A stretch of DNA of 64,000 nucleotides from Tetradesmus obliquus (taxonomy: Eukaryota; Chlorophyta; Chlorophyceae; Sphaeropleales; Scenedesmaceae). This document shows, piece after piece, positions 3,252 to 62,996 of this stretch (within the stretch, counting starts at the first letter, position 1; each line of letters opens with the position of its first letter). The stretch spans positions 7,908,501 to 7,972,500 of the forward strand of contig CP126192.1 of NCBI GenBank assembly GCA_030272155.1, given 5' to 3'. Below the pieces are notes generated by a model. The model ran no database searches, was not told the DNA's origin, and was given only the letters and a program-made list of their open reading frames with translations. The position numbers and the translations under genes were made by a program.

Positions 3252-5087
3252 TCACATTGCGTTGTCTGCTGCCGCCTCAGCCTCATTCTCTGCACCCCCC
3301 GCCCCCCCTGCACCACCCCGCTGCGGCATATGGTCCCTGAAGAACTCAGCAGCTTCCTGATTCGCCACCTGAGCTTCCGGAATATTCCAAAAGGCCTGGA
3401 ACACATGCCACATGGCCTCAAAGGGCGAGAATACAACATGCTGGCCGGCTGCACGCATCTTCCGGTACAACATGACGTTGCTGCTGATCAAGATGTCACG
3501 CAGGCCCACTTGCAGTAGCGTAGGAGGGAAGGGTGCATCATCATACACACCATACAGGGGAGACACTAACGGATCAGACAGCATGGATGCATTTCCTGCA
3601 ACATATGCCAGTGCAGCCGGCGAAGGACTGTCTAGGTCAGTAGGTGCGCGCAGCATCGGGTCTACGCCGGTCAAAGTAACAGTACTGTCGCCGGCATGCG
3701 GCAGCAGGTCAACCCAAGGGCTGTAGAGGACTACTGCTGCTGGCATTTCCAAGCTGTCGTGGTTATCTGGCAGCTGGTTGAGCAGCTGCAGCAAAGCCAT
3801 CACGAGACCGCCACCAGCCGAGTCACCCTGCGTGCACAACAGACAGCAGTAGGTGTGTGTGTATGTGTGTGTGTGTGTGTGAGTGCAGAGAGGAAAGCAC
3901 TGGTGAAGAATTGGCGTGGTTGGAAGCCAAAGCACAACAACGCTCTTGCAGGACACCGCAACGCCAGCCTGACACAATGCAGCCCCGCTGGTAGCATCAC
4001 TATTGTACCCAGGCACTCAGCGCACAGCAAAACAACACACGTGACGCGTAGCAGCATAAAAAACTGCAGCAGCAGCAGCAGCAGCAGCGGACTCACCAGC
4101 ATCACAATGTTGTGTGAATCATATCCCTCATCAGTTAGCAGGTGCTTGTACACAGCAAGCGCATCAACCAGCGCTGCTGCACAGCAACATACCACACACC
4201 CTGAAATAACATGCAAACTTGCGTACTAACAACAGCAGCGGACTCACCAGCATCACTATGTTGTGTGAATCGTATCCCTCTTCTGTTGGCAGGTGCTTGT
4301 ACACAGCAAGGGCATCATCCAGCGCTGCTGCACAGCAACATACAACGCAACCTGAAATAACATGGGAAATCACGTAAATCAACAGCAGCGGACTCACCAG
4401 CATCACAATGTTGTGTGAATCGTATCCCTCATCAGTTAGCAGGTGCTTGTACACAGCAAGGGCATCGTCCAGCGCTGCAGGAAAGGGGTGCTCTGGAGCC
4501 AGTCGGTAGTCAACACACAGCACTTTAAGCCCTGCTGCATGCGCCACAGGAGCAGCAACCATCCAGGCACTGGCCTTGCAGGAGCCTAGGCTGTATGCTC
4601 CTCCATGCAAGTACAGCAGCAGCTGCCTGCTGGCTGGGTCGCTGCTGGAGATATGCCCCTTAGGGGTAGCGTACACGCATGGCACGCCTGCTAGGGTGGC
4701 TTCTTCTGTGCCTTGCAGGAAAGCATCTGCTGCTGCTGTGCCAGCTGGCTTTGTCCTGGCATCAAAGTATGCGCGCTGCTGCACAGTGTCAGGTTGGGGC
4801 TCTTTGGGGTGTGCTGTGCTGAGGTAGGCCTGGGCCTCCTCGCTGATGTGCTTAGGGACGTAGCAGTAGGGCTTTACTGCTTCTGCGGGCTTGTGCGGAG
4901 CAGTGCACGCGTTGGCGCAGGCCCCTCCGTCTGCTGCACTGCAGGTGTTGAGTGGGGCGTCAACTGCTGATTCTACCGATGCCGGTGCAGGTGCCGGTAC
5001 CGCTTTCTTCTTGCTAAAGAATCCAGCTTCTGCAGACGCAATCAAGCATAGACACGCAACGATTACGGATGCGCGTAGCCGCGCCAT
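3252..5087 (-). CDS. Secreted alpha/beta-hydrolase esterase (HSL/carboxylesterase-like), 2 exons
   Basis: Model: exon 1 5087-4398, exon 2 3827-3252, total 421 aa; the junction ATG CTG | GGT GAC is in phase. The chosen start (MARLRASVIVACL) opens a typical signal peptide ending near residue 22; an upstream in-frame ATG (5225) would bury it. The fold signature is complete: oxyanion-hole HGG at 161-163, DYRLAPEHPFPAALDD about 192-208, nucleophile GDSAGG with Ser233, and candidates Asp341 (GLRDIL) and His371 (MWHVFQ). These are the hallmarks of the hormone-sensitive-lipase/alpha-beta hydrolase-3 group, which cleaves short- or medium-chain esters. Substrate unknown; an extracellular or ER lumen location is inferred. 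The intron contains two extra copies of the last about 100 bp of exon 1, each with its own donor. It is divergent from the WW/FF gene, with 525 bp between the start codons. Confidence 0.85.
3849..3882. repeat. (GT)n microsatellite in esterase intron
   Basis: A run of GT dinucleotides with one A interruption lies just inside the acceptor end of the esterase intron. On the coding strand it reads as (CA)n. Confidence 0.85.
4085..4480 (-). repeat. Triplicated 3' end of esterase exon 1 (period 150-151 bp)
   Basis: Three copies of the segment coding LDDALAVYKHL..EGYDSHNIVML plus its GTGAGTC donor lie at about 4398-4480 (real exon end), 4248-4335 and 4097-4175. The donor G positions are 4397, 4247 and 4096. 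Each extra copy is preceded by TGTGCAG, which could act as an acceptor. The reading frame stays open through the first extra copy and into the second. Confidence 0.9.
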
Positions 5088-5612
5088 GCCGTAGAGAACG
5101 TCAGATCTTCTGGGCAACCAAACTGGGCACAGCACCGACACTCGTACTTGCAAGCACTTAGTGCATACTCGCTGCTGACAAATACAAAAAGCAAAATGAT
5201 GTGTACTGGCCACCAGTCTGAACACGCAGGCAATGCGGGCAGCACACCAGGGTTTGGACGGACGGACGTGTTACTCGAGGTGTTGCTGTTCCCGGGTGAC
5301 ACAGGTCCTCAGCAACAGCTGTGAGCAGTGAATGAAGCAGATCAACGCGTATTCGTAAGCGACATTTACCTGGTTGATATCAACGTAGACAACCGTCACG
5401 CCTGCACAACACAGCAACAGTCTGGTGCAACACTTGAACAGCATCGGCAGACGTTGACATATTGCCGTTTTAGTGGAATTGATCGACTCTGTACCTTTCC
5501 TGTTTCATCACCATGCTGCCGTGATTGCAGCACGTGCCCTGCAAGCAGCAGCTGCTGCAGCAGCAGTAGCAGCAGCAGCAGGCCTACTTTCTACTTGATC
5601 AATTGATCAGCC

Positions 5613-62100: not shown

Positions 62101-62996
62101 TGCCATCACATTAAACCCACCAGCTCACTCCTCAAAGCTGACTACAATCTGCCTGCGTGCCTGCCTGCCTGCCTGCCTGGTGTTGTATTGCCTTGCCTTG
62201 CAGAATGACGACAAGAACGAGCTGGACGCGATGTTTGCCATCACATCAAACCCACCAGCTCACTCCTCATAGCTGAACACAATCTGCCTGCGTGCCTGCC
62301 TGCCTGCCTGGTGTTGTATTGCCTTGCAGGATGACGACAAGAACGAGCTGGACGCGATGTTTGCCATCACCAGACACCCATGCACCTCTTGCTGTAGCTG
62401 AACACATGCCTGCTTGCCTAATTCTTGTATTGCTTTACAGGATGACGACAAGAGTGAGCTGGACGCGATGTTTGCCATTGCGCGCATGGCGCCGGAGGAG
62501 ATGTGGCGCACGCGCATGGGCCTCGACGAGCTGCGCAACAAGATGAACAGCAGGGCCACGGGTGAGAGGGCCACAGGGAATTAAATGCATCCATATGCTG
62601 TACTACTGTGCTGCAGGGGTTACTACTTTACTGCACTCATCTGCTGTGTCAGCTGGTGGCTGCCGTTATGCTGTCTGCAGGGCTGTTCGCTCTATGTGCT
62701 TTGCATTTGGCCACAGTTGCCTTCATAGCCCTGCATGGCCCAAAGCACGTGTATAAGCTCATTGATGACATCTGTACCTGCGCTTGCTGGGGATCGGCAT
62801 TGCCCCTGCAGGGCTGCTACTGGGCTGGCTCAAAGAGAAGGGCCTGGAGCCAGACACCAAGGTGGAGGGCCAAGGCGCACACCGGCGGCTCAGTAGCAGC
62901 AGCAGTAGCGGTGGGCGGCGGCAGCTGCTGTCGCCGCTGTGGCTGCTGGAGCTGGCTGGGCAGCAGGCAGCAAAGGAGGCAGGCTTACTGCTTTGA
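59158..62996 (+). CDS. Secretory-pathway glycosyltransferase-like protein, 6 exons
   Basis: Exons: 59158-59775, 60387-60564, 61204-61359, 61757-61830, 62441-62561, 62812-62996; all phases agree, 443 aa. An in-frame ATG at 58951 would add 69 aa, but the later start places a hydrophobic segment (TLALPLLLLLCCGAQHVSAG) nearer the N-terminus as a signal peptide or anchor, so it is preferred. The core begins LKIAIVNQVHFHLEVVAGAMHVL. It continues with YDLVLFISPEYQTSW, ALYYVHNGH, SCLKGFSVQGRIERSRRNY, a basic GYRKKEGADALKNFRLNILGE stretch, and ADKPFMGAYTMIERSAVYYQ. The pattern suggests a GT-B-like nucleotide-sugar enzyme (VQGRIE.SRRNY and a late GA..MIE-type motif), but I cannot assign a CAZy family. 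Donor and acceptor are unknown. Confidence 0.68.
60270..60315 (+). repeat. Decoy copy of glycosyltransferase-like exon 2 acceptor edge
   Basis: GCAAGAGCTGCCTGAAGGGC at about 60281-60300 repeats the start of exon 2 (60387 onward) and then hits a TGA directly after TTC. Confidence 0.87.
60755..60835 (+). repeat. Decoy copy of glycosyltransferase-like exon 2 donor edge
   Basis: The block coding LN(I/V)LGEAVEAF(T/M)(V/L)P, which ends the real exon at 60564, recurs at about 60762-60810. The copy ends CCGATTGAGT and so has lost the GT of the donor. Confidence 0.85.
61455..61540 (+). repeat. Decoy copy of glycosyltransferase-like exon 3 donor edge
   Basis: CCCATGCTGGCCAGCCCGCTG through ATTACAG|GTGGGC repeats 61289-61359 with its donor. 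Confidence 0.92.
62060..62400 (+). repeat. Three decoy copies of glycosyltransferase-like exon 5 acceptor edge
   Basis: GCAG(G/A)ATGACG(A/T)(C/T)AAGAACGAGCTGG edges start at about 62070, 62205 and 62330 before the real start at 62441. All code D(D/N)-D-(D/V)-KNELDAMFAIT and share the intron block CTGCCTGCGTGCCTGCC. Confidence 0.93.

Follow-up and report, generated by a model that had tools for sequence, protein, structure and literature searches.

Introners are dispersed families of elements whose repetitive sequence is tied to introns, and intronic minisatellites repeat in tandem. We describe here a further kind of intron-linked repeat in the green alga Tetradesmus obliquus, detected in a window of 64,000 nucleotides (contig CP126192.1 of assembly GCA_030272155.1, positions 7,908,501 to 7,972,500) and elsewhere in the genome: the edge of an exon, its splice site and some adjoining intron recur in tandem within the intron, as exon-edge copies. 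These share with introners the link to introns, but the arrays were found by match to their own adjoining exon. With minisatellites they share the tandem arrangement, at a period of ~100-200 bp; they differ in that the unit spans a splice junction, the polarity is fixed and the divergence is coding-like.

Isolated cases of duplication across a splice junction have been described before (PMC4974935). In the passages of that paper on intron gain by tandem duplication, the duplication likewise crosses a boundary and duplicates the splice signals, but a single, isolated event yields a new intron, whereas in T. obliquus the exon number and the protein of our reference gene, for ferredoxin-sulfite reductase (SiR), are unchanged, the copies lie within existing introns and the events are recurrent (15 of 37 homology-anchored introns). 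No new intron with both splice sites was created, as seen from the inner ends of the copies, where splice sites are not above random, and from the SiR protein. Repair of DNA breaks produces small tandem duplications (PMC8355091) that are also local and direct; the passages on them draw no link to splice junctions or to arrays, and such duplications would start identical, whereas synonymous divergence is found here. Auxenochlorella, with its allodiploid/heterozygous recombination (PMC12636532), is likewise a diploid alga with diverged haplotypes, and exon-edge duplication is unmentioned in the passages of that work concerned. In the literature searched, which leaves subscription journals largely outside its coverage, we found no recognised description of pervasive exon-edge copies. 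The T. obliquus arrays offer a tractable system for intron growth and for the disregard of strong decoys by the spliceosome, and potentially also for gene reshaping by recombination between diverged haplotypes.

The window lies on contig C2 of an assembly of 104.66 Mb in 17 contigs. The reference loci were SiR, within the window, and 11 HSP70 and class I tRNA synthetase loci elsewhere in the genome, anchored by Pfam and located on other chromosomes. Introns with both flanks fixed by homology and with consistent phases were accepted, which gave 37 anchored introns from SiR and 10 of the 11 anchored loci; three candidates were dropped for inconsistent phase, and locus hspC7 had no usable intron. 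Exon-edge copies were detected in 15 of the 37 (41%) and in none of 74 dinucleotide-shuffled control introns; 2 of the 15 additionally contain an intron-only pair. Local direct duplications with a period of ~100-160 bp are common in the window (Tandem Repeats Finder, TRF; self-BLAST), and at least five of its genes carry arrays (SiR, a WW/FF-domain gene, a GCC2/GCC3-like gene, a Kelch gene and an alpha/beta hydrolase).

A gene finder trained on the reference genes, with penalties and homology anchors, was applied to the window and to 20 evenly chosen 10-kb loci. It placed gene borders poorly, fusing adjacent genes, so only strong exons were used, and it mistook copies for exons itself, as other gene predictors may also do. 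Strong exons were present in 18 of the 20 loci and kept copies in 10. Pfam profile searches alone also showed partial-exon matches (C17:238664-238738 and 238794-238865) beside a full one (238408-238605). Tandem copies of exon edges with their splice sites, originally predicted from the window, are confirmed genome-wide with the corrections given below, on the basis of 37 anchored introns and 168 exons. The expectation that more than half of the introns carry them holds barely in SiR (6 of 11 tested introns) and fails in the anchored set.

Copy-bearing anchored introns are about twice as long as the others (median 498 bp, n=15, versus 228 bp, n=22), and copies occupy about one quarter of intron length in anchored genes, as estimated from 24 copies of 137 bp in 13.7 kb. 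They may contribute to the long mean intron of T. obliquus, 462 bp against 270 bp in Chlamydomonas in the figures given in a passage of PMC5966456.

The SiR protein built without copies aligns to the maize enzyme (5h8v) with no gap at the copy-bearing junctions. It equals an independent Scenedesmaceae database protein (P0001) across all 610 residues, so the copies are absent from that protein. That only the edge contiguous with the full exon gives a phase-consistent protein, as had been claimed for all modelled genes, is supported in SiR, where it was checked, by the open frame and the database protein. No second SiR copy was found in the genome apart from a weak match on contig C5, and a paralogue origin of the SiR copies is rejected on that ground.

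The polarity of the copies was scanned over 168 exons (55 anchored, 25 from the window and 88 others). On the left flank of the exon, 62 of 70 matches begin at the exon start, none reaches the exon end and 8 do neither; on the right flank, 46 of 63 finish at the exon end, 6 touch the exon start and 12 do neither, one match touching both ends. Five of the six that touch the start came from one window exon, which was judged mis-modelled and excluded. The copies stand in direct orientation, upstream of acceptors and downstream of donors, and this polarity is the mark of duplications that span a splice junction. The proposal of a filter through which only intron-lengthening duplications pass is supported by the polarity, strict bar a few exceptions, by the greater length of the copy-bearing introns and by a SiR protein that contains only the joined edge.

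Leaving out six exons whose models were doubtful or which contained internal repeats, together with matches short of the expected edge, reduced the 133 flank matches to 110 kept copies. A seventh exon (locus L016) was excluded from later counts, leaving 61 arrays, 24 of them in the anchored genes and SiR. Unit length was determined for 54 arrays; in the rest the intron part fell outside 25-160 bp or the flank was too short. The mean is 137 bp (standard deviation 23, range 100-220), with a median make-up of 55 bp of exon and 77 bp of intron and a minimum intron part of 43 bp. The original prediction, of units of ~70-160 bp in 1-8 copies, was thus too short in the unit and too generous in the number: within 800 bp, no exon edge had more than five kept copies. 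It had also overstated decay by stops, frameshifts and damaged splice sites. Stops occur in 12 and frameshifts in 17 of the 110 copies, and among copies reaching the junction exactly, 32 of 35 retain an intact GT and 51 of 53 an intact AG; the splice sites are mostly strong.

The differences between copy and exon are distributed very unequally over codon positions 1, 2 and 3 (5.4%, 4.6% and 18.9% in the 110 copies), contrary to neutral relics. For the nearest copy in each of the 61 arrays, 128 of 590 fourfold sites differ (0.217) against 96 of 2269 sites at positions 1+2 (0.042), a ratio of 5.1 (confidence interval 4.1-6.6); in the 24 arrays of the anchored genes and SiR it is 3.7 (2.5-5.7). 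By reasoning, the ceiling for a copy neutral from birth, beside an exon changing silently only, is 2. A neutral simulation put through identical detection, which picked up 631 of 984 simulated copies, yielded 1.85; this rejects a detection artefact behind the synonymous excess. An artefact of base composition or CpG is rejected as well, since the excess persists after correction (4.6 and 4.8).

The fourfold sites of the copies have a coding-like GC content (0.76 vs 0.78), and their GC-to-AT and AT-to-GC differences are symmetric (49:40 in the nearest copies, 76:92 in all copies); positions 1+2 drift toward AT (49:24 and 91:59, respectively). Third-position divergence is homogeneous among the 54 arrays (chi2/df 1.2). 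The intron flanks of the copies show the divergence expected for t ~0.16-0.20 per lineage (median 0.19), more than four times the value at positions 1+2, and in half of the 54 arrays their score exceeds the 95th percentile for unrelated flanks. The fourfold excess, the symmetric fourfold change and the far more diverged intron flanks suggest a long shared coding phase and a short non-coding phase; judged from the sequences, most of the divergence between copy and exon seems to date from a time when both were coding.

The copies now appear inert, with no sign of use as exons. At the inner end of donor-edge copies an acceptor-like site is present in 22% of 45, compared with 28% at random places, and an early impression that an acceptor precedes these copies was not borne out; at the inner end of acceptor-edge copies a donor is present in 7% of 59, compared with 12%. 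Unit length shows no preference for frame, with remainders of 0, 1 and 2 modulo 3 in 18, 19 and 17 of the 54 arrays. Stops make up 9 of 207 stop and missense changes (4.3%, neutral 4.4%): nonsense is tolerated, and because this ratio is neutral the missense changes probably come mostly from the non-coding phase. Alternative exons, cassette or mutually exclusive, are rejected since the copies have no second splice site and do not preserve the frame, and the idea that the arrays are a source of alternative splice forms is, with the neutral stop:missense ratio in addition, not supported.

We suggest unequal exchange between diverged alleles as the best reading of these sequences, a tentative choice that we rate somewhat below an even chance. 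Junction-spanning duplications would survive by leaving untouched the junction that is continuous with the exon body. The copy and the present exon edge would not come from one recent duplication within one chromosome; most of their divergence would have arisen while each was a functioning exon edge in an allele or haplotype of its own, and they would then have been put in tandem by unequal exchange or by end joining, between homologues that had diverged. Repeated expansion and contraction of the array in a diverse population may be an alternative route. An edge severed from its exon body would become an intronic decoy and then decay neutrally. Unequal allele exchange predicts synonymous-dominated divergence and then a neutral phase, and this is the pattern found. 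T. obliquus has been reported to be a highly heterozygous diploid (Biondi 2024, as cited in PMC12636532). The OEZ86 and OEZ85 protein sets, which we infer to stand for two haplotypes of one strain and whose listed contigs differ in length (5,223,752 and 5,166,162 bases), include a pair that looks allelic, with 489 of 513 residues identical and part of the difference at the C-terminus, where the alignment ends.

Several observations weigh against allele exchange. More than half of the arrays (37 of 61) depend on our own gene predictions. Fourfold divergence is independent of copy rank (0.243, 0.238 and 0.273), so that the alternation of similarity along the array that would mark two haplotypes is not seen, and adjacent copies are as distant from each other (0.228) as from the exon; at least three diverged lineages would therefore be needed, and two haplotypes are insufficient. 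The divergence needed may exceed that of the present haplotypes, and the narrow unit length is unexplained by allele exchange. The eight single-copy arrays chosen for alignable flanks show fourfold divergence of 0.24 vs ~0.12 in the intron, and third positions other than fourfold sites tilt to AT (33:23 nearest, 67:48 all copies). Changes private to one copy, in 28 arrays with at least two copies, comprise 75 synonymous and 112 nonsynonymous ones (synonymous share 0.40 vs 0.27 expected) and fall 52, 51 and 84 on the three codon positions; this skew is milder than that of total divergence, and the private changes come nearer to the neutral expectation. Missense changes are mildly conservative (BLOSUM62 mean -0.18, standard error 0.11, vs random -0.46), which could mean partial constraint.

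Allele exchange may be taken one step further, to an idea that we consider improbable but worth stating: exon edges turn over, each junction having beside it an exchanging pool of edge copies shuffled by recombination between alleles, so that the edge now at work was a decoy in some other lineage, and vice versa. Introns would then be reservoirs of tested edges and splice sites, near-functional through repeated promotion and demotion.

A simpler origin, rather unlikely in our view, is that the copies are plain relics of tandem duplications across the junction in one chromosome, neutral from birth, whose survivors leave the contiguous junction intact. The polarity (62 of 70 matches on the left, 46 of 63 on the right), the neutral stop:missense ratio, the indifference of the unit to frame, the lack of a second splice site, the nearly neutral private changes and the flanks still alignable in the better-scoring half of the 54 arrays would all follow from it. 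It does not, however, accommodate a fourfold to positions 1+2 ratio of 5.1 against 1.85 in the neutral simulation, the coding-like fourfold GC, or intron flanks whose divergence far exceeds that of the copied exon part, and in its simplest form it is refuted, provided that the exon models and alignments hold.

Selection might instead keep copies that are in use, as splice-site platforms or as back-up exon edges sometimes restored by recombination. Divergence that conserves amino acids, splice sites that are mostly intact and strong, and slightly conservative missense changes are consistent with such use, but nonsense occurs at the neutral frequency given missense, second splice sites are not above random, unit length ignores the frame and the database SiR protein lacks the copies, which makes this explanation quite unlikely.

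We give still less credence to a duplication mechanism that targets splice junctions, such as break repair at the exon-intron boundary that duplicates a patch of fixed size. The suggestion of a mutational process at exon boundaries has in its favour an excess over random: 55 of 204 pairs span a predicted exon edge, compared with 25.8 expected and a maximum of 45 in 500 permutations. Among 161 edges of each kind, the inner copy ends lie 28-100 bp inside the exon at 34 of 45 acceptor and 28 of 43 donor edges with a pair, and copy ends are almost absent from 49 bp outside to 12 bp inside the edge; the narrow unit length also fits targeting. The predicted genes spanned 222 of the 264 kb in this placement test, however, so intron and intergenic DNA were poorly separated. 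If the intron flanks are as diverged as they look, intron-only duplications of the same inferred age would be detected just 35% of the time (76 of 216 simulated), so that their shortage is in large part a matter of detectability, which weakens the suggestion. Copied exon parts shorter than ~28 bp lie close to the detection limit or fall beneath it; on the acceptor side, a unit that takes in too little intron would be deprived of its acceptor signals. Given the low detectability and this loss, centring on the junction can arise without targeting.

An assembly artefact is extremely improbable, as the kept copies show 0-27% difference from the exon, in many cases alongside differing intron flanks, occur in 10 of the 20 evenly chosen loci and come from a chromosome-scale assembly (17 contigs).

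The exons and arrays of the window are collected in Table 1.

Table 1. SiR exons and other exon-edge arrays, in window coordinates
Feature	Position	Strand	Acceptor-edge copies	Donor-edge copies	Remarks
SiR (ferredoxin-sulfite reductase), 12 exons	24918..31202	-			single open frame; maize 5h8v alignment; P0001 100% identity, 610 aa
SiR true exon	30357..30557	-	30626-30683, 30753-30810		
SiR true exon	27890..28066	-	28125-28193, 28251-28319		
SiR true exon	27292..27438	-	~27628-27678		
SiR true exon	26319..26457	-	26539-26597, 26658-26717	26202-26251	
SiR true exon	25598..25825	-		25429-25463	
SiR true exon	24918..24996	-	25088-25137		
WW/FF-domain (TCERG1-like) gene, predicted exon	9544..9695	+	4 copies (9047-9494)	5 copies (9769-10375)	
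WW/FF-domain (TCERG1-like) gene, predicted exon	7298..7683	+		7809-7877	
WW/FF-domain (TCERG1-like) gene, predicted exon	10807..11015	+	10559-10610, 10697-10748		
Predicted exon	11880..12153	+		12356-12411, 12490-12540, 12722-12779	
Predicted exon	13058..13178	+	12931-13003	13501-13566	
Cysteine-rich gene, predicted exon	43649..43801	-		43463-43531	
Cysteine-rich gene, predicted exon	44094..44231	-	44339-44373		same gene as 43649..43801
GCC2/GCC3-like gene, predicted exon	49512..49619	-	49732-49801, 49864-49936, 50011-50038	49284-49323, 49398-49437	
Kelch-repeat gene, predicted exon	54950..55081	-	55221-55253		
Abhydrolase_3 gene, donor-edge array	4097..4398	-		~4248-4328, ~4097-4177	exon edge ~4398; edges by eye
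Acceptor-edge type array	62069..62441	+	from ~62069, 62204, 62330		contiguous exon start ~62441; by eye
Donor-edge type array	16802..17135	+		~16933-17003, ~17065-17130	putative exon edge ~16872; by eye

Genes for GCC2/GCC3-like extracellular repeats make up a large family (window 44-52 kb, minus strand; contigs C4, C5, C11 and C14), with several copies on C14. Outside the window, an isoleucyl-tRNA-synthetase-like gene (locus L034, C13:3958776-3959854, minus strand) carries an array of six almost identical segments that code for VKDPAKGTVYIVAE or a near variant of it, at spacings of 128 and then 191-193 bp.

An Rfam scan gave no match at gathering scores. Trinucleotide tracts of (GCA)n/(TGC)n are very frequent in the window (TRF; for instance 41975-42049, 51572-51673 and 54004-54056); some exon-edge units start inside such tracts, which may aid misalignment. 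TRF also detected short-period minisatellites, unlike the ~137-bp exon-edge class, at 22042-22451 (34 bp), 39536-39841 (59 bp) and 10385-10527 (31 bp).

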